A stretch of DNA of 64,000 bases from an uncultured Poribacteria bacterium (lineage in GTDB: Bacteria; Poribacteria; WGA-4E; PCPOR2b): the NCBI GenBank assembly GCA_958296125.1, contig OY282444.1, positions 1,669,940 to 1,733,939 of the forward strand. The letters are read 5' to 3'. The notes beneath the pieces are model-generated. The model worked only from the letters and a program-made list of their open reading frames with translations. It was not told the origin of the DNA and did no database searches. The stretch's first letter is position 1; each line of letters starts with the position of its first letter. Below, piece after piece: positions 27,437-51,170 of this stretch. Both the position numbers and the translations under genes were made by a program.

Positions 27437-27754
27437 TTGAAGAATAGGTCGCTCGGATTCAGGTGGGGAGTCGCTGAATATTTTTCTTCTTCCGATGACT
27501 TTAGCCTTGCAAAGATTGTATATCTCTGCACGCTTAAAACCCATAAATGAAATGAGACCAACATTTTGCCATAAGTGTATTCTCACTATCAACTCCTTTT
27601 AGATATTGATTTTTCTCAGAAACTGATAACGTTTCTGGATTTGAATTTACGGATCGTGTGCATTAGGTGACCATCGAATTATCTTATCATATTTGACTAA
27701 AAAAATCAAAGCGAATTATGTTGTCTAGGGTCATTTAATTCTTCGGTCCGTGCC

Positions 27755-27772
27755 GTCCGTGCCGAGACCAGG
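27755..27772 (-). repeat. Copy of 18-bp dispersed repeat CCTGGTCTCGGCACGGAC
   Basis: Exact match in reverse orientation, followed by a partial GGAGACCAGGGG and a further CCCTGGTCTTG at 27911-27922. Other copies are inside tnpB genes and in the miniature element near 33 kb. Confidence 0.8.
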
Positions 27773-27827
27773 GAGACCAGGGGCGGAGCATCCTGCCCCG
27801 CATACGATGTAGGCCCCCCCTCCCCCC

Positions 27828-27907
27828 GCTTGCGGGGGGATTAAGGGGGGTATCACTTGCAGGGGAATTAAAGGGGGATATCACTTGCGGGGGGATTAAA
27901 GGGGGGG
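27828..27907 (+). repeat. Tandem repeat, about 28 bp x 3
   Basis: Three head-to-tail units with the consensus TATCACTTGCGGGGGGATT followed by AAAGGGGGG. The first unit lacks its 5' part. There are no unique spacers, so it is not a CRISPR array. The first unit also forms the right arm of a G/C hairpin. Confidence 0.75.
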
Positions 27908-28237: not shown

Positions 28238-29152
28238 TCAATCGTCGTCGGTGTCTATGCGAAAGGCTCCCCACACCGGCCGATGGTCGCTCACTGCCAG
28301 TGACGCTGCATCGTCGTTGTTCCCAAAATAGGTTTCATCAAACCGTTCAATCCCGCTTTCTCCGGTGTACTCGGTCACATGACGTGTTTGGAAAAAGATG
28401 TTATCGTAGAGGCTGGTATCTCTGATATGGGACTTCTCTGGGAGTTGAAACAGATGCTTCATTGATGGGATAGACAGCAGGGGGCCATACGCCGATTGAT
28501 CATCAGGGTTGCGATTGAAATCGCCTAACAGTATCACATCCTGTTCCGCTTCGTCAGCTGCTTGCACCATCTGATACACATTCGCTAATTCCTGTACCTC
28601 CCGCTGACGTTTACCCTCATCCTTACCCCAAATCACATGCATAGCGATCGCGGTAAAGTCAAACTCGCCTGCCTTGAAGGTAGCGAAATAGGGTTCACGA
28701 AAAAAGGTATCGTTGGGGTCAGGGAACACTTTACCATCTTCGATAACATGAACTATTCGTGGGTCAAACAGGAAAGCATAGCGTTCCTTCACGCTTGCCC
28801 CAACTGGCGGACTCATCACGTAGTCATAATCCCTTCCCATGCGGTTCAACACTTCCTCAGTCCGCATCAAAACGACTTCATCCCTCAATTCGACAATAGC
28901 GATAAAGTCATAGCCTATCAATACCTCGGCGATGTGGTGCAACTCGTCATCGTCCCGGCTGTTATCGCTGAAGATGCGGATATTCCACGCGGCGAGCCGG
29001 AATGTTGATTCGCCGTGCCCTGTTAGCGTATCCTCTTCAACCACCGCCTCCGGGATGTCCGTCTCAACAGAGGGATTCTCGGCGAGTTCCAAACATGCAG
29101 TGAGGAAACCAATCAGGATAAGGAGTAGGAAACTCTGTTTTCGGGCGGTCAT
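28238..29152 (-). CDS. Endonuclease/exonuclease/phosphatase-family lipoprotein
   Basis: The 304-residue protein has a lipoprotein signal (IGFLTAC) and a DNase I-like EEP domain. Its active-site motifs are in order: RLAAWNIRIF, DFIAIVELRD with the metal-binding Glu, TAIAMHVIW, VILLGDFNRNP and a final AVSDHRPVWG with the catalytic Asp-His. The fold hydrolyses phosphodiesters of nucleic acids or phosphoinositide-like lipids; with a lipid anchor it probably acts outside the inner membrane on extracellular DNA or other phosphodiesters. The binding lipoprotein gene upstream on the same strand ends 42 bases away. The C-terminus is Asp-rich. Confidence 0.88.
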   Translation of the reverse strand: MTARKQSFLLLILIGFLTACLELAENPSVETDIPEAVVEEDTLTGHGESTFRLAAWNIRIFSDNSRDDDELHHIAEVLIGYDFIAIVELRDEVVLMRTEEVLNRMGRDYDYVMSPPVGASVKERYAFLFDPRIVHVIEDGKVFPDPNDTFFREPYFATFKAGEFDFTAIAMHVIWGKDEGKRQREVQELANVYQMVQAADEAEQDVILLGDFNRNPDDQSAYGPLLSIPSMKHLFQLPEKSHIRDTSLYDNIFFQTRHVTEYTGESGIERFDETYFGNNDDAASLAVSDHRPVWGAFRIDTDDD

Positions 29153-29193
29153 GTGTTTCTCGTTGCTGGATTGGGAGGTGGGCTGAATCAGGA

Positions 29194-30354
29194 TTACTCG
29201 AAGACCTGAAGTTCGCCGTTTTTGACAATCAGTATGACCGGATCGTAAACAGCATCCCCGACTGTGTTAAAAGAGAACTGACCCAAAACGGTGTCAAAAT
29301 CTGTGATGTTCGCTAGCGCGTCTCGAATCGCAGTTGCATCAACGGATTGGGCATCGGCAATTGCCTTGGCAAGAATATAGACGGATGCATACGACTGCGC
29401 GGCCCAGGTGTTGGGGTCGATACCATACTTCGCACTATAATTCTGGATGAAGGCTTGATTGCCCGGCGTGTCAGCCGTGTTGACCCAATTAGTAAAAGCG
29501 ATCGTCCCCTCGGCGGCATCGCCCGCAGCTTGCACATCGGTTATGGTCAGCGTGTTAATAATAAAGGGAACCGAGTCGGGTATATTGAGTTGATGGGCTT
29601 GGATCAGAATCTCAGGTTTGTCTGGCGGTAAGGCGGAAACAAAGACCGCGTCAGGATTTGATTCCTTGATGCGAGTTAATTGTTCGGAAAAGTCGGCATC
29701 GCCGCTTTGGAAGGTTTCTGTGGTCAGAATCTCGACACCGTTCGCAGTGAGCACTGCCCCTATCACCTCGGCACCATCCGCGGAGAAGAGATCCGTTTCA
29801 TCATATATGATTGCCACTTTCTGGTAGCCGAGTTTCGCTTGCGTTGCCTTGATGCCGCTTAGAATCAGCATGTCTGTGGTGAGACTGGTGCGAAAGATAA
29901 AATCGCCAATCGCGCTCAGCCCGCGGGCGGCGGCGGTGGAGCTTATCGCCACAACACCATTCTGTTGTGCTATCGGAAACGCTGCTTCGGCTGCATTTGA
30001 GGTAGCGGGCCCGAGGATAATAGATACACCGTCTTGACCAATTAGTTTATTAAATGCCCCAACAGTGCCTTCAGCATTGCCCCGACTGTCTTCGGTGATA
30101 AACTCGAGTTTTGTATTGCCAAGCTGTGAGTTGTTAATCTCCTCACGAGCCAGCTCAAAGCCGCTTTCCATCTCCATCCCAACCGAGGCGAGTCGTCCGG
30201 TGGCAGGGTAGACGAGGCCAATGGAAATTTCTCCACTGAGCCCCTCCATCTGAGGTGAGGTGGGGAGGAGAAGTCGCTGCATCTGATCGCAGGCAGAAAG
30301 CCCCACAACTAACGCGGCAATTGCCAAGACAAACGCAAATTGGGTGAATCTCAT
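29194..30354 (-). CDS. Branched-chain-amino-acid-type ABC substrate-binding lipoprotein, paralogue 1
   Basis: The 386-residue lipoprotein (lipobox LSAC after a short hydrophobic core) has a LivJ-like periplasmic-binding fold: ISIGLVYPATGRLASVGMEMESGFELA, GVSIILGPATSNAAEAAFPIAQ, GVVAISSTA, VAIIYDETDLF, FQSGDADFSEQLTRIK, ADAVFVSALPP, YSAKYGIDPNTWAAQSYASVYI. It is the last of three tandem copies on the same strand (see 30437 and 31786). No LivHMGF permease or ATPase genes are nearby, so it may serve a transporter encoded elsewhere or act as a sensor ligand-binder. The ligand is unknown. Confidence 0.9.
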   Translation of the reverse strand: MRFTQFAFVLAIAALVVGLSACDQMQRLLLPTSPQMEGLSGEISIGLVYPATGRLASVGMEMESGFELAREEINNSQLGNTKLEFITEDSRGNAEGTVGAFNKLIGQDGVSIILGPATSNAAEAAFPIAQQNGVVAISSTAAARGLSAIGDFIFRTSLTTDMLILSGIKATQAKLGYQKVAIIYDETDLFSADGAEVIGAVLTANGVEILTTETFQSGDADFSEQLTRIKESNPDAVFVSALPPDKPEILIQAHQLNIPDSVPFIINTLTITDVQAAGDAAEGTIAFTNWVNTADTPGNQAFIQNYSAKYGIDPNTWAAQSYASVYILAKAIADAQSVDATAIRDALANITDFDTVLGQFSFNTVGDAVYDPVILIVKNGELQVFE

Positions 30355-30436
30355 GATATTCCTTTTTCAGTTTGTTGTCGCGCGTCCGGAGGTGCAATGA
30401 ACTGCGCGACTACAAACCTTTCTGGCGTTTAGCAAT

Positions 30437-31600
30437 TTATTCAAAAATTTGGAATTCGCCGTTTTTGACAATCAATATAACCGGGTCATAAACGGCATCC
30501 CCGACAGCATTAAAAGAGAACGGCCCCAAAACGGTGTCGAAATTTTTCGTATTTGCCAGCGCGTCTCGAATTGCGGTTGGATCGGTAGATTGCGCTTCCG
30601 CGATCGCCGCGGCGAGAATATAGACAGCGGCATACGACTGCGCGGTCCAAGGGTTCGGTTCACTCCCATACGTCGCTCGGTACTTCTGGACAAAGGCTTG
30701 ATTTCCCGGTGTATCAGCCGTACTAATCCAACCTGCAAAAGAGATTGCCCCCTCGGCAGCGGCCCCTGCGTTTTCCACATCGCTTATCAGGCTAGTAATA
30801 AAGGGAGTCTCAGCGGGAATTCCAAGCTGGCGGCTTTGAACCTGAATTCCAGTTAGCTCCGGTGGTAACGCTGCGATAAAGATAGCGTCAGGGTTTGCCG
30901 CCTTCATCCGATCCAATTGGGCAGAAAAATCGGTATCGCCACTTTGGAAGGTCTCCGTAATCAGAATCTCAACCCCGATCTCAGTAAGCGTGTCCCTGAA
31001 CTTTTCATGGCTATCTATGGAGTAGGGATCAATTTCATCATATATGGTCACTACCCGTTGATAACCGAGTTTCGCGTGCGTTGCCTTGACACCGCCAGGA
31101 ATCAACACATCTGTGGTGAGCCCAGCGCGGAAGATTAAATCGCCAAGTGCACTCAGACCAGAGGCGTTTGAGGATGAACTAAAAGCCACAACCCCATTCT
31201 GTTGCGCGATTGGAAACGCCGCCTCTGCTTGACCTGAAGTTGTGGGACCGAAGATAACAGGTACGCCCGCCTGATGAATCAGTTTATTATACGCTTTGAC
31301 GGCACCCTCAACAGTGCTCTGGTCGTCCGCGATGATGAAATTGAGTTTAATATTGCCGAGTTGTGAGTTGTTTACCTCCTCTAGAGCCAGTTCAAAACCA
31401 CGTTGTATCGGTAGGGCAAACGTGGCAAGCCGTCCGGTGACAGGGTAGACGAGGCCAACGGGAATCTTCTCACTGAGCCCGTCCGTCTGAGGTGTCGCAG
31501 GGACGAGAAGTTGTTGGATCTGGTCACAGGCGGAAAGCCCTGCAATCAGCGTAACAATCGCTAGCACAAACACAAATGTGGTGAATCTTCTGATGTTCAT
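30437..31600 (-). CDS. Branched-chain-amino-acid-type ABC substrate-binding lipoprotein, paralogue 2
   Basis: The 387-residue middle copy of the triplet starts MNIRRFTTFVFVLAIV with lipobox LSAC. It matches paralogue 1 over its full length, including the C-terminal GDAVYDPVILIVKNGE. The start is preceded by GGGAG. The binding-loop residues differ (GVPVIFGPTTSGQAEAAFP versus GVSIILGPATSNAAEAAFP), so the ligands may differ. The 82-base gap to paralogue 1 contains no obvious promoter. Confidence 0.9.
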   Translation of the reverse strand: MNIRRFTTFVFVLAIVTLIAGLSACDQIQQLLVPATPQTDGLSEKIPVGLVYPVTGRLATFALPIQRGFELALEEVNNSQLGNIKLNFIIADDQSTVEGAVKAYNKLIHQAGVPVIFGPTTSGQAEAAFPIAQQNGVVAFSSSSNASGLSALGDLIFRAGLTTDVLIPGGVKATHAKLGYQRVVTIYDEIDPYSIDSHEKFRDTLTEIGVEILITETFQSGDTDFSAQLDRMKAANPDAIFIAALPPELTGIQVQSRQLGIPAETPFITSLISDVENAGAAAEGAISFAGWISTADTPGNQAFVQKYRATYGSEPNPWTAQSYAAVYILAAAIAEAQSTDPTAIRDALANTKNFDTVLGPFSFNAVGDAVYDPVILIVKNGEFQIFE

Positions 31601-31785
31601 TTTTAACTCCCTATTCGTTGTTGATTGATATAATCAAGATCAAATTGCGATCTATCGTCAGAAAAAGCGGGTTTTGACGTTTCGGTGTGAAACATCTTGC
31701 TGTTGTTTAACCTTTGCCTATTGTTCCATAGATTATAGTCGTCGTCAAATTAAAAAATGAAGGGATTTCTTAGCGGGATAGACAC

Positions 31786-32955
31786 CTACTCGAAGACCTG
31801 AAGTTGGCCATTCTCAACAATCAATACGATCGGGTTGTAAACCGCATCGCCGACAGCGTCAAAAGAGAACTTACCCAAAACCGTGTCCGAATCCATGATA
31901 TTTGCCATAGCGTCCCGGATCGCCGTTGAATCAACGGATTGCCCCCTCTTAATCGCAGTCGCCAAGATATAGACAGAAGTATACGCCTGCGCTGCCCAGA
32001 TGGTTGGTTCGATACCGTACTTCGCGCGATAATTCTGAAGGAAGGCTTGATTTTCTGGTGTGGCAGCGGTGCTGATCCAACTGGTAAAAGTAATCACACC
32101 CTCGGCAGCATCGCCTAGAATTTGGATCTGATCCGAGGCGAGGGTAACGGGGACAATAAAGGGAATGTCAGCGGGGATGCCAAGCCGGCGACCTTGCCTC
32201 AAAATCTTGGTCGTATCTGGGGATAGTGCCGAGATAAAGATCGCGTCAGGATTGGATTCCTTGATGCGAGTCAATTGTGCAGAAAAGTCAGTCTCGCCGG
32301 TTTCAAAGGTTTCTGTGGTCAAGATTTCAACACCGTTCACATTGAGCGATTCTTCCAACACTGTATCGCTACTTCGGGAAAAGAAATCAATGCTATCGGC
32401 TATTTTAGCAACGCGCTGATAACCCAGTTTTTCATGGGTTAGCTGGACACCGGTAGGCACGAGTTTATCTACAGTGAGACTTGCCCGAAAGCCAAAATCG
32501 CTAAGCGCGCTGAGACCGCGAGCCGCAGATAGTTGGCCAAACGCCACGACCCCATTTTCTTGCGCGATTGGAAACACCTCTTTGGTCGCACTTGAGGTTG
32601 CAAGACCGAGGATAACAGGCACACCATCCTGATGAATCAGTTTATTGGCTGCTTTAACAGCACCCTCAACGGTGCTCCGATCATCTTCAATAATTAACTT
32701 GATTCTCGCATTGCCGAGCTGAGAATTATTAATCTCTTCGACAGCTAGTTCAGTACCTTGTTGCATTGCTATGCCGCTTGAAACGTAGGGACCTGTCTGC
32801 GGTAGGATAAAGCCTATGGGAATCTCTCCACTAAGTCCTTGCATCTGAGGTGATATGGGGAGGAGTTGCTCAATCGGGTCACAGGCAGAAAGCCCGACAA
32901 TCAGCGGGACAATCGCCAGTACAAACGCGAATGTGGTGAATCTTCTGATATTCAT
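31786..32955 (-). CDS. Branched-chain-amino-acid-type ABC substrate-binding lipoprotein, paralogue 3
   Basis: The 389-residue first copy of the triplet starts MNIRRFTTFAFVLAIV with lipobox LSAC and shares the LivJ fold (IPIGFILPQTGPYVSSGIA, GVPVILGLATSSATKEVFPIAQ, FISALSPDT, GDAVYNPIVLIVENG). AGGAGG lies just before the ATG at 32955; a longer frame that runs upstream through repeat DNA is not credible. Its nearest upstream neighbour is a miniature IS200/IS605-type element at 32973-33475, whose end lies only 18 bases from the start codon, so that element may have brought or removed a promoter. Confidence 0.9.
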   Translation of the reverse strand: MNIRRFTTFAFVLAIVPLIVGLSACDPIEQLLPISPQMQGLSGEIPIGFILPQTGPYVSSGIAMQQGTELAVEEINNSQLGNARIKLIIEDDRSTVEGAVKAANKLIHQDGVPVILGLATSSATKEVFPIAQENGVVAFGQLSAARGLSALSDFGFRASLTVDKLVPTGVQLTHEKLGYQRVAKIADSIDFFSRSSDTVLEESLNVNGVEILTTETFETGETDFSAQLTRIKESNPDAIFISALSPDTTKILRQGRRLGIPADIPFIVPVTLASDQIQILGDAAEGVITFTSWISTAATPENQAFLQNYRAKYGIEPTIWAAQAYTSVYILATAIKRGQSVDSTAIRDAMANIMDSDTVLGKFSFDAVGDAVYNPIVLIVENGQLQVFE

Positions 32956-33030
32956 TTTTAACCTCCTTGGTGTGACATACTCCCAAGCATACCTGGTCTC
33001 CCCGATAGATCGTCCCCCGTTCCGAGGGCC

Positions 33031-33080
33031 CCGCGAACGGGCCTGTCCCCGTTCCGAGGGCAGGCCCGATGCAATCGGGG
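33031..33080 (+). repeat. 50-bp GC-rich direct repeat, copy 1 (in right-end hairpin loop)
   Basis: Begins CCGCGAACGGGCCTGTCCCC and ends GATGCAATCGGGG. It differs at one position from the copy at 33384-33433. It contains its own inverted repeats, including CCCGAT-GCA-ATCGGG. Confidence 0.85.
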
Positions 33081-33140
33081 CTGGAACGGACAATGCTTGG
33101 GCTTCTTACCTGTTGTTGACAGGCTTCTTAGATATGATCC

Positions 33141-33158
33141 CCTGGTCTCGGAACGGAC
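33141..33158 (+). repeat. Copy of 18-bp dispersed repeat (17/18)
   Basis: Reads CCTGGTCTCGGAACGGAC, one base different from the copies at 27755, 37235 and 37403. It lies in the interior of the miniature element. Confidence 0.8.
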
Positions 33159-33383
33159 GACTACAGGGGTGAACGCCCACCCCTGATACTTTGTCCAGAT
33201 ATGACTTGCACCCACAACTCTAAAAGGTGTCCGTGCCCCCGATTGTATCGGGACAGGCGAGACCAGGGGGGCAATGCAAAATCATATCCAATTATAACAC
33301 ATTCCTTAGGTTTGTGTAAGGTAAAAATCACGGTGTTTGACCCAACGCTGTCCGTGCCACCGTTCCGTGTGCAGGCGAGACCC

Positions 33384-33433
33384 CCGCGAACGGGCCTGTC
33401 CCCGTTCCGAGGGCAGGCCCGATGGAATCGGGG
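33384..33433 (+). repeat. 50-bp GC-rich direct repeat, copy 2 (in left-end hairpin loop)
   Basis: Same sequence as 33031-33080 except one base (GATGG versus GATGC). Both copies occupy the loop of an end hairpin of the miniature element, interrupting the GCTTTAGC-type loop seen intact at 51138-51147. Confidence 0.85.
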
Positions 33434-33502
33434 ACAAGCAGGAAAGCATTGGGATTGTGAGAAATTCTTTCATGCGAGTTACCCCCTTCTACCCCTGACT
33501 TA

Positions 33503-36703: not shown

Positions 36704-37876
36704 ATGAAAACCTACAAGTTCAAGATGTATAGTGGTCATGGTAACAAAGCGTTGCATAAAACTATTGAGGGACACGCTCATATCTGGAATCATTGTATCG
36801 CCCTTCAGCGTCGCTACTATGCCATCTATGGCAAGTTTATCAGCAAGTTTAGACTGATAAACCATATCTCTAAACTCAAGAAACTCTCTCGCTTTGCCCA
36901 TTGGAATCAGTTGCCAAGTCAGGCGATCCAAGACGTAGCAGCACGGATAGACAAAGGCTATAAAAAGATGTTCAAAGACCGTGCCGCGGGCAAAAAGTGT
37001 GGCAGACCTCGTTTCAAGCCCCGTCGTAAATATAAGTCGTTCACCTTGACACGGGCAGGCTGGAAACTTCTATCCGACAATCGAATCAGAATCGGGAAAT
37101 GGGTCTACCGCTACTTCAAATCCCGTGAGATACAAGGCACTCCCAAGCGTTGCACCGTGAAACGGGATGCCTTAGGCGATATCTATATCTGTGTGCTAAC
37201 CGACTATGAAGAACCTGACCAGAACCGAGCTATGCCTGGTCTCGGCACGGACACGGGTAATATCGCAGGCTTTGACTTTGGTCTCAAACGGTATCTGACC
37301 GGTTCAGACGGCAATGATATAGAATCACCTCTATTTTTCAAACGCAGCCTCAACGCTATCAAACGGTTCAGTCGTAAACACAGCACCAAACGTACCTGTC
37401 CTGTCCGTGCCGAGACCAGGCGGAACGGGAAAGGTTCAAAGAACAGGGAACGCGCCCGTTTGGATTTAGCCCGTAAGCACCGTAGAATCGCTAACCAGCG
37501 TGAGGACTTCCACTGGAAACTTGCCCACGATCTCACAGACAGATATGATGAGATACGGCTTGAGGACTTGAATTTGAAGGGCATGAAAGCCCTTTGGGGA
37601 CGCAAGGTTAGCGATTTAGGGTTTGCTGACTTCATCAAAAAACTGGTGTATATCGCTTCCAAAAAAAGTGTTAAAGTAAAGTTCATTGATAGGTGGTATC
37701 CGTCCAGTAAGACCTGTTCAGTTTGCGGTGCAGTCAATGAAGCGTTAAATCTGCGGGATAGAACTTGGCAGTGTCCCTGCTGCCACACACAGTTAGATAG
37801 AGATCGCAACGCCGCGATTAATATCTATAGGGTGGGGGCATCCACCCTTTCAGGAGAGGTCGTAAGTTCCCGATGA
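36704..37876 (+). CDS. tnpB: TnpB, RNA-guided nuclease of IS200/IS605 family
   Basis: The 390-residue protein has the N-terminal helix-turn segment (TYKFKMYSG, AHIWNHCIALQ) and a RuvC-like core with the three acidic residues: Asp191 in AGFDFGLK, Glu287 in IRLEDLN and Asp367 in DRDRNAAIN. A zinc finger CSVCG...CPCC lies between the second and third motifs. These proteins are RNA-guided nucleases that use a guide from the element's right end. Two peptide stretches, near residues 176-185 and 231-241, are not usual in the family. They are encoded by an 18-bp repeat in opposite orientations (37235-37252, 37403-37420) yet keep the frame. Cleavage competence is therefore plausible but unproven. Confidence 0.92.
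   Translation: MKTYKFKMYSGHGNKALHKTIEGHAHIWNHCIALQRRYYAIYGKFISKFRLINHISKLKKLSRFAHWNQLPSQAIQDVAARIDKGYKKMFKDRAAGKKCGRPRFKPRRKYKSFTLTRAGWKLLSDNRIRIGKWVYRYFKSREIQGTPKRCTVKRDALGDIYICVLTDYEEPDQNRAMPGLGTDTGNIAGFDFGLKRYLTGSDGNDIESPLFFKRSLNAIKRFSRKHSTKRTCPVRAETRRNGKGSKNRERARLDLARKHRRIANQREDFHWKLAHDLTDRYDEIRLEDLNLKGMKALWGRKVSDLGFADFIKKLVYIASKKSVKVKFIDRWYPSSKTCSVCGAVNEALNLRDRTWQCPCCHTQLDRDRNAAINIYRVGASTLSGEVVSSR
37235..37252 (+). repeat. 18-bp dispersed repeat inside tnpB 1
   Basis: Exact CCTGGTCTCGGCACGGAC within the coding sequence just before the first catalytic Asp; it encodes about PGLGTD in frame. Confidence 0.85.
37403..37420 (-). repeat. 18-bp dispersed repeat inside tnpB 1, inverted copy
   Basis: Exact reverse complement of the copy at 37235, 150 bases downstream in the same gene; it encodes about VRAETR in frame. 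Confidence 0.85.
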
Positions 37877-37957
37877 ATCGGGACTAACCTCATTGATAGA
37901 ACAATTCGACTCCTAAAGGATAAGAAGCCCAATCCTTTAGGTTTGGGAGTATGTCAA
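37830..37957 (+). ncRNA. Predicted omega-RNA (guide scaffold) of tnpB element 1
   Basis: In studied TnpB systems the guide RNA derives from the 3' end of tnpB and the right end, with the guide lying just outside. Here that region holds CCCGAT-GA-ATCGGG-like and CCTAAAGGAT/ATCCTTTAGG hairpins and ends TATGTCAA. Position inferred from family knowledge; the 5' end is approximate. If right, the guide would begin at about 37958. Confidence 0.4.
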
Positions 37958-49726: not shown

Positions 49727-49870
49727 TTGACTGCTCCCAATGTTAAAACATTGGGATTCTTATGATAGACTGAACAGCAATAATTGTTCGCCTATTGCCG
49801 TGCTATCGCAGCCCAAACCTGATTCGACGATTCGTGCCTCAACGGCTGAGGGCTTACCAAATCTCCACAA
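49727..49870 (-). ncRNA. Predicted omega-RNA (guide scaffold) of tnpB element 2
   Basis: Inferred from the family: 3' end of tnpB, the CCCAATGTT/AACATTGGG hairpin and the terminal AGTCAA. The guide would begin just beyond 49727 on the minus strand (toward lower coordinates). The 5' end is approximate. Confidence 0.4.
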
Positions 49871-51009
49871 GCGTTTTGCGTCTCCGAGCGCCCCTCGGCG
49901 ACGGTTCTCAGGTTTATTGCAGCGTTGAGGTCTCGGTCTTGGGTATGACCACAATCGCTACAATGATATGTCCTATCAGACAAAGATAAGTCGCTGTCTA
50001 TTACACCGCATGCCGAGCACATCTTACTGGACGGATAAAACCGATCGGCTTCAACTACCTTTACGTCTATCGCATCCGATTTATACCTCAACATCTCAAG
50101 AAACGTTGATAAAGACGCATCGGATAACGCTTTGGCAAGTCTATGATTCTTTATCATACCTGCGACGTTCAAAGATTCTATGCCGATACGACTGGCACCC
50201 TTGACAATCGCAGTGGTCGCCTTATGATGTGCGTCTTTGCGAATGCAGGTTATCCGATAGTGTAACTTGGCTATCTTGTCCTTCAGTTTATACCAGTTGC
50301 GGCTGCCTTTGACTTTGCGGCTAAATCGACGTTGAAGCCTCTTGAGTTTTCTTTCATGACGATGCAACGCTTTCGGATTCGCAAAATAGTGTCCTTCCGA
50401 CGTAATGGCTAAGTGCTTGATTCCAACGTCAACACCGACAACAGGCTTGCCACGCGGGTCGGTCCGTTCCAAGACCAGGGATATTGGATCGTCAACGAAT
50501 GTATCAACGAGAATGGAAGCAAACCACCGATGCCCCTGTTTAGAAATAACAACTTTGCAGATCGTGCCGAGGTAGCGTAGGGTTTCAAACATGCGAACCC
50601 AACCGATTTTGGGGAGTTTAATTCGCTTGCCTACGACAGAAATTGTGCCTCGACCGCTATCGGCTTGGTAACTCTTGCTATGAGACTTTTTCTTAAACTT
50701 TGGGAAGCGGTTTTGACCCGACTTCCATCGGGAGACCGCATCGTTAAGATTCGTGTAAATCGCATTTTTTGATACACATTGTGACATGGCTTTACACCAG
50801 TCGTATGTATCATGCTTGATGGCATTGAAACGGCGACAAAGGGCTATGTGAGAATGCCAATCCCCATCATCGAGACCCCGCTTAAAATCGGCTAAGGCGT
50901 GATTGTAGGCGACACGAGCGTAACCGCAATGCTGAGCAAACCTTGTCGCTTGAACGTTATTAGGGGCTAATGCGATTTTATGTGTTTTTAACATGGGATT
51001 ATTTTCCAT
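49792..51009 (-). CDS. tnpB: TnpB, RNA-guided nuclease of IS200/IS605 family
   Basis: The 405-residue TnpB is of a different subgroup from the one at 36704. The RuvC-like triad is Asp in VVGVDVGIKHLA, Glu in RIGIESLNVAG and Asp in TQDRDLNAAIN; the zinc finger is CSACG...CSDCG. The N-terminal part has GYARVAYNHALADFK, RFPKFKKKS. An imperfect copy (16/18) of the dispersed 18-bp repeat lies in frame at 50462-50479, encoding part of LVLERTDPRG just before the first catalytic Asp, close to where element 1 is also interrupted. The C-terminal 25 residues run into the right end. Confidence 0.92.
   Translation of the reverse strand: MENNPMLKTHKIALAPNNVQATRFAQHCGYARVAYNHALADFKRGLDDGDWHSHIALCRRFNAIKHDTYDWCKAMSQCVSKNAIYTNLNDAVSRWKSGQNRFPKFKKKSHSKSYQADSGRGTISVVGKRIKLPKIGWVRMFETLRYLGTICKVVISKQGHRWFASILVDTFVDDPISLVLERTDPRGKPVVGVDVGIKHLAITSEGHYFANPKALHRHERKLKRLQRRFSRKVKGSRNWYKLKDKIAKLHYRITCIRKDAHHKATTAIVKGASRIGIESLNVAGMIKNHRLAKALSDASLSTFLEMLRYKSDAIDVKVVEADRFYPSSKMCSACGVIDSDLSLSDRTYHCSDCGHTQDRDLNAAINLRTVAEGRSETQNACGDLVSPQPLRHESSNQVWAAIARQ
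50462..50479 (-). repeat. 18-bp dispersed repeat inside tnpB 2 (16/18)
   Basis: Plus strand reads GTCCGTTCCAAGACCAGG, two bases different from the exact copies. In frame, upstream of the first catalytic Asp codon. Confidence 0.65.
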
Positions 51010-51117: not shown

Positions 51118-51170
51118 AAAAACACTGTTTGACCCAATGCTAAAGCATTGGGCTTGTGAGAATTTCTGTC

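Follow-up and report, generated by a model that had tools for sequence, protein, structure and literature searches.

Very small CCTG-tagged hairpin units, probably of mobile type, stacked within the end hairpins of an IS200/IS605-type relic of Candidatus Poribacteria

At the ends of IS200/IS605 elements, insertion takes place 3' of a short target and leaves no target duplication, which holds likewise for the units described here. Rickettsia palindromic elements, at about 100–150 bp, insert in frame into protein genes. The SDRs of Nostoc and other cyanobacteria, approximately 24 bp in length, were reportedly described by Elhai et al. in 2008 as mobile-looking and inserted into other repeats and structured sequences. 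SDRs, some of them 20 bp long, have also been cited as possibly mobile (PMC2884548). REPs, including those associated with TnpA_REP/RAYT, BIMEs, and REPINs, share with the present units a tetranucleotide tag 5' of a small hairpin that is perfect or bulged, as well as a high copy number and an occasional location inside genes (PMC3733652, PMC8266576); for the REP/RAYT system, the accepted model has Y1/HUH enzymes acting on single strands (PMC3733652, PMC8266576), and in the REPIN model the mobile entity is a REP doublet (PMC3116915). In IS200/IS605 and REP substrates, the guide tetranucleotide lies directly 5' of the hairpin and the cleavage site is chosen by base pairing (PMC8266576); the ends of IS608 and ISDra2 resemble the present units in this placement (guide logic in PMC8266576). 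The GC clusters of yeast mitochondrial DNA (GC42 and GC18) and the hairpin elements of sponge and fungal mtDNA are similarly short GC-rich palindromes that are optional at homologous sites, merge, and nest (PMC4478555, PMC2800124), and GC18 of yeast is an 18-nt unit (PMC4478555, PMC2800124). The spread of REP-like palindromes, SDRs, and mitochondrial GC clusters is a long-standing question, in part owing to the difficulty of delimiting clean units and empty sites.

The locus considered here lies in the window, i.e., the whole 64,000-nucleotide stretch that was analysed, from a Poribacteria genome of 5,156,246 bp (5.16 Mb), about 864 kb of which was sampled as stretches. A non-autonomous IS200/IS605-type element (a tnpB relic or MITE) occupies 32973..33475 on the minus strand, with its LE at the 33475 side and its RE at the 32973 side. 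Its assignment as a miniature IS200/IS605 element in the original prediction is upheld by ends and body that match full tnpB elements of the same genome. As predicted, the ends match the two intact elements at 36704 and 49792 in the same window: the LE hairpin recurs at 51133–51152, and the RE tail, ...TTGGGAGTATGTCA, at 37935–37957. The relic retains the 3' end of a tnpB, and its body derives from that end of a third tnpB lineage (L022, L007), the closest parent; inserted units make up approximately half of its length, and further copies are found in the genome at L003, L004, L007, L010, L013, and L022. With family LE and RE hairpins around a tnpB-derived body, the relic as a whole belongs to IS200/IS605. 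No Rfam match was obtained in the window at gathering thresholds, and the congeners offer no usable orthologous empty site for the whole relic, as the gene to its left differs there. A run of ORFs extends over 28238–33093 of the window, in which tandem paralogues at 29194, 30437, and 31786 (minus strand) are 66–84% alike; the paralogue adjoining the relic is a periplasmic binding protein (Pfam Peripla_BP_6).

Both end hairpins of the relic carry inserts of the predicted size of about 100 bp. In the RE hairpin, a 100-bp insert (32992..33091, plus strand) separates the arms CCCAAGCATA (32982–32991) and AATGCTTGGG (33092–33101); in the LE hairpin, read on the minus strand, a 93-bp insert (33350..33442) separates CCCAATGCTTT and AGCGTTGGG. 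The two inserts have 58 bp in common at 95% identity, within which lies the expected stretch of about 50 bp with a single mismatch, and a 37-bp core of the inserts returned nine genome-wide matches at up to 3 mismatches versus none for the control, so chance does not account for it. Both hairpins also occur without an insert in this genome: the LE hairpin in its empty form, CCCAATGCTTTAGCATTGGG, in which CCCAATGCTTT runs directly into AGCATTGGG, stands at 51133–51152 within the window, and the empty RE hairpin, CCCAAGCATA joined to AATGCTTGGG, is found in L003, L007, and L022. The insert is thus often absent, contrary to the possibility that it is never missing from these hairpins. At the RE hairpin position of L013 and L040, only a single 18-bp unit, named U1, is present (in L013 as CCTGGTCTCGGAACGGAC) in place of the 100 bp of the window. 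The second reading proposed earlier, in which IS ends have expanded structurally, is unsupported, as identical units also turn up well away from any IS.

Both inserts prove to be piles of very small units of mobile type; combined with an inferred single-stranded DNA mechanism, this explanation is considered probable as a whole. The units are 18 or 21 bp long, namely U1 (CCTGGTCTCGGMACGGAC), U2 (CCTGYCCCGTTCGCGGGG), U3 (CCTGYCCCGATNNNATCGGGG), U4 (CCTGYCCTCGGMACGGGG), and U6 (CCTGCACACGGAACGGTG). The 93-bp LE insert consists of exactly five of them, nested on the minus strand: U1 holds U2 at its position 4, with U3 inside U2 and U4 inside U3, and it holds U6 (33358..33375) at its position 10. 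The innermost U4 occupies 33400..33417, between the two parts of U3 (33395–33399 and 33418–33433). Stepwise excision of U4 (18 bp), U3 (21 bp), U2 (18 bp), U6 (18 bp), and U1 (18 bp) leaves 75, 54, 36, 18, and 0 bp, with one mismatch in total, located in U2. In the RE insert, where U1-like outer halves CCTGGTCTC...GGAACGGAC surround further units, U4 (CCTGCCCTCGGAACGGGG, 33047..33064, minus strand) and the U3 around it (33042–33046 and 33065–33080, plus strand) excise cleanly, and the remaining 61 bp resolves incompletely into the U1-like halves, a hairpin CCCGATAGATCG, and truncated U4 and U2. The tnpB-derived body of the relic contains two more copies of U1, one at 33141..33158 on the plus strand (CCTGGTCTCGGAACGGAC) and one at 33229..33267 on the minus strand with a nested U3 (33237–33257), the excision of which gives back GTCCGTGCCGAGACCAGG.

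The units are all built alike: CCTG stays unpaired as a tag, and a hairpin takes up the remainder, ending at the 3' end of the unit or within one base of it. When folded alone, U1, U4, and U6 share the fold ....(((.((...))))), in which CCTG stays single-stranded, three base pairs are separated from two further pairs by a bulge of one base, the loop has three bases, and pairing extends to the final base; U2 and U3 combine the tag with a perfect hairpin, leaving CCTGT and the last base unpaired. The stems covary between units (GTC/GAC, CCC/GGG, CAC/GTG, and CTC/GAG). The bulged hairpins are weak, at −1.2 to −2 kcal/mol, and extra thermodynamic stability was rejected (z about 0); the argument from anatomy therefore rests on the shared architecture and the paired changes rather than on energy. 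Among the bulged 18-mers found, 112 carry the CCTG tag, the next commonest contexts being GGGG, CCCG, and CCGG.

Several hundred such units are present in the genome, some within genes. With at most one mismatch, U1 has 158 copies in the 5,156,246-bp genome versus 0 for a reversed-pattern control; its strands are balanced, and tandem copies are spaced by exactly 18 bp. Exact matches to U1 number 107 in this genome, 3–9 in each of five congeners, and none across 53 further genomes of the order; across 84,980 GTDB species, the remaining matches are about 16 singletons in unrelated taxa, where chance is estimated to give about 15, and the viral contigs searched returned two single matches, which is chance level. 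Judging from these matches, the units are limited to one Candidatus Poribacteria genus. U3 has 26 copies in this genome and 2–13 in the congeners, whereas U2 (31 copies) and U4 (21 copies) are absent from all five congeners, whose assemblies are fragmented and may lose repeats, although units within unique DNA should still assemble. By these counts, U2 and U4 are species-specific among the six genomes and mark lineage-specific bursts. An assembly or adapter artefact might come to mind for a short, identical, GC-rich sequence in which U1 contains GGTCTC, a BsaI site; with units found in MAGs of several different isolate prefixes, mutated copies in existence, and in-frame placement, lineage-specific sets, and a target rule to be accounted for, the chance of such an artefact is negligible. 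Two sources supply the commonest 14-mers in the sampled genome, namely AGCCACTCAA, a heptanucleotide-like array, and repeats of CACCCTCACCGGGCATAC.

Comparison of filled with empty sites indicates that units have entered IS end hairpins, other units, and, in frame, genes, with flush junctions and no duplicated target. In all fetched DNA, a flush empty-site homologue without target duplication was found for 73 of the 188 unit sites, some of which are counted more than once in overlapping loci. Among five tnpB paralogues, 77–82% identical to the query copy, clean 18-bp in-frame U1 inserts differ at no fewer than nine sites, in addition to single inserts of 36 bp (a U4-like unit holding U1) and 27 bp; every one of these inserts has a flush empty site in another paralogue, without target duplication. 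For instance, the intact 390-aa tnpB at 36704..37876 (plus strand) carries an in-frame U1 at 37235–37252 as well as the in-frame 36-bp insert at 37396–37431, in which U1 (37403–37420, minus strand) lies within the U4-like unit, and has its empty sites in L123 and L125; similarly, the intact 405-aa tnpB at 49792..51009 (minus strand), whose LE at 51133–51152 is empty, has an in-frame U1 at 50462–50479. Both encode the Pfam domains OrfB_IS605 and Cas12f1-like_TNB. Beyond IS genes, three in-frame unit sites in genes identified by Pfam, two of them in a gene of the Uma2 family and the third in one for ketopantoate reductase, are empty in congeners, the surrounding sequence of which is about 73–81% identical; the alignment splits the 18-bp gap at both Uma2 sites. 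Inserts occur in every codon phase and in both orientations. Six-frame openness of the units as a sign of selection was not significant per unit versus shuffles.

Empty and filled forms alone give no direction, and the filled state could in principle be ancestral, with units lost by precise excision. This reading is very improbable, because the gene sites are empty in congeners, U2 and U4 are missing from all five, any given insert is missing from most copies, and the order of nesting requires insertion. When a unit is cut out, its flanks join into an intact outer unit at 41 of 147 sites (28%), compared with 1.8% in controls whose cuts were displaced by 10–55 bp, and the 5' hairpin of the tnpB paralogues displays three-step nesting through L122, L124, and L123, with the intermediates all present. 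At 27746..27781 (minus strand), U1 (27755–27772) sits in the exact centre of another U1. A U1 reversed within U1 (A-B'A'-B), like tandem U1, might be produced by foldback or slippage, i.e., by replication template switching at hairpins, after which filled IS copies would spread by transposition and gene conversion; some sites are indeed common to IS paralogues by descent (L124/L125). This route is nonetheless judged unlikely, since it has no local template for U2 in U1, for U4 in U3, or for U1 in the Uma2 and ketopantoate reductase genes, and since the fixed 18- and 21-bp ends and the target rule (a pyrimidine at −4) need end recognition.

Several minor observations accompany these sites. Clusters of U1 sit within another repeat ending CGAAGAATTAAATGACCCTA (window 27725–27830; L087 9500; L094 7712), possibly a MITE of its own in which units accumulate. 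The 27-bp in-frame insert (CCCCGATAAGATCGGGATTCAGAGC...) in the tnpB of L122 and L124, present in at least seven further places of the sampled genome, represents a second hairpin family with the arm GTTGCTYTGAAT in place of CCTG. A Type ISP restriction-modification gene of 1088 aa (L207; G000 836001–839500) contains three in-frame U1, two of which are tandem.

U1 inserts 3' of YNNN: at 33 of 33 non-redundant, non-nested sites of this genome, position −4 is a pyrimidine (29 C and 4 T; binomial p 2e-10), and the U2, U3, and U4 sites of this genome have C or T at −4 in every case. Congener sites form an independent set, in which the pyrimidine is present at 17 of 18 U1 sites and 5 of 6 U3 sites. 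A second guide-target pair (A at −3 opposite T3) was not adopted, being enriched at the own non-nested sites (17 of 33) and in neither the congeners nor the CCCG-tagged variant. Hairpins with stems of at least 6 bp harbor 11 of 69 own and 6 of 18 congener sites, whereas random positions fall within them in 2.8% of cases, and several sites are exact loop tips, including that of a hairpin with a 13-bp stem in a congener (L171); most inserts also lie inside other units, within genes, or in intergenic DNA. The first reading in the original prediction, a nested mobile repeat targeting hairpin loops, accordingly survives in its nesting, its mobile-type character, and its preference for hairpins, while a single repeat of about 100 bp and the loop as the sole target are given up, most own sites being outside hairpins. 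Replication strand bias was not readable from the sampled GC skew, which is too weak to place the origin and terminus. In G003, hairpins of the CCCCGATNNATCGGGG type are, as judged by eye, likewise stacked within each other.

The position of CCTG directly 5' of the hairpin, where a guide tetranucleotide sits, leads to the inference of Y1/HUH single-strand handling. It is tentatively proposed, at slightly below even chances, that the unit constitutes a minimal substrate for single-strand transposition, mobilized in trans by a nuclease of the Y1/HUH type. CCTG would act as the guide tetranucleotide, as at IS200/IS605 and REP ends, and its G would face the target pyrimidine at −4 through a G-C pair or a G-T wobble, which would explain why only C and T are allowed. 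The putative nuclease would cut and join the unit as folded single-stranded DNA in trans, with exposed single strands, and above all hairpins, as favoured targets; units would consequently pile up within units and IS ends, and reuse of one YNNN target would yield tandem units. Flush inserts, merger, and GC-rich hairpins have prompted, for GC42, the proposal of spread as RNA or cDNA, and every unit known here is a transcribable hairpin, a cDNA of which might be joined to DNA at nicks or hairpins; the combination of tag, hairpin, and a pyrimidine at −4, however, fits a DNA guide better, and the RNA route is regarded as doubtful. As for enzymes of the proposed single-strand route, the two Y1 proteins found in the genome are an IS200-type TnpA of 152 aa (L119), downstream of which units lie within or beside its IS end, and a RAYT-like protein of 234 aa (L120; L206, G000 4409001–4414500), the gene of which is flanked by GTGGGAGAGGCATCCCTGCCTCGAC repeats of the GTGG-GA type rather than by CCTG units. 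No nuclease linked to CCTG units was found in the genome, and the search for a Y1 gene confined to the bursting species was negative, the congeners having at least as many Y1 genes. The repeats flanking L120 read GTGGGAGAGGCATCCCTGCCTCGACTATCGGGAAAGGGATTTCCCTCCCAC and have the look of a classical REPtron with a GTGG tag.

By analogy, the units work most like REPs and mitochondrial GC clusters and resemble cyanobacterial SDRs. They possess the unpaired tetranucleotide and short hairpin (5–13 bp stem) of REPs, but neither GTAG nor CGTC is among the listed tags of the bulged 18-mers, and no RAYT/TnpA_REP gene is flanked by unit repeats; unlike REPs, they measure only 18–21 bp, are deeply nested, and have exact empty sites, and no cognate enzyme was found. 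In contrast to REPINs, a single hairpin seems to be the inserting unit, as single 18-bp inserts with empty sites occur in place of inverted REP pairs. Compared with IS200/IS605, the units lack a left and right end pair and a body, their target is reduced to YNNN, and a single hairpin of 18–21 bp replaces two distinct ends that have subterminal hairpins, with a transposase gene in some copies. The GC clusters are mitochondrial and have a putative AG target duplication, whereas the 73 flush junctions here show none. With the REP tags and the GC-cluster duplication both wanting, the units belong to neither class. The cyanobacterial SDRs, a tentative likeness, differ in sequence and phylum, and the Rickettsia palindromic elements, alike in their in-frame gene insertion, are several times longer and of other sequences. 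Few mobile-looking DNA pieces known from bacteria are as small as these units, which are filed as a new variety of very small palindromic mobile DNA; the literature searched, which covers few subscription journals, yielded no paper describing them.

One genome thereby provides several hundred exact-ended short units and dozens of matched filled and empty sites, in which nesting orders events in time, together with a one-base target rule and lineage-specific bursts. The exact units, empty sites, nesting, and target rule make the single-strand tag-and-hairpin model testable with short oligonucleotides. The units also offer a route for six-residue insertions into many proteins, in any reading phase and without frameshift. 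An ultra-small transposable DNA class, in which the CCTG-tagged 18–21-nt hairpin would be the complete single-strand substrate, recognised in trans via its tag and preferring hairpins, is put forward with a little under half of the weight of belief; if true, hairpin-preferring insertion would give rise to multi-level nested stacks and tolerated in-frame protein insertions. Other Poribacteria genera contain different short repeats, including GTAG-GA-tagged ones; in the G006 and G009/G010 samples (L260–L279, L300–L319), repeats of the GTAG-GAGCGATCTCCGAATCGCGAC type are abundant, and these are apparently ordinary GTAG REPs.
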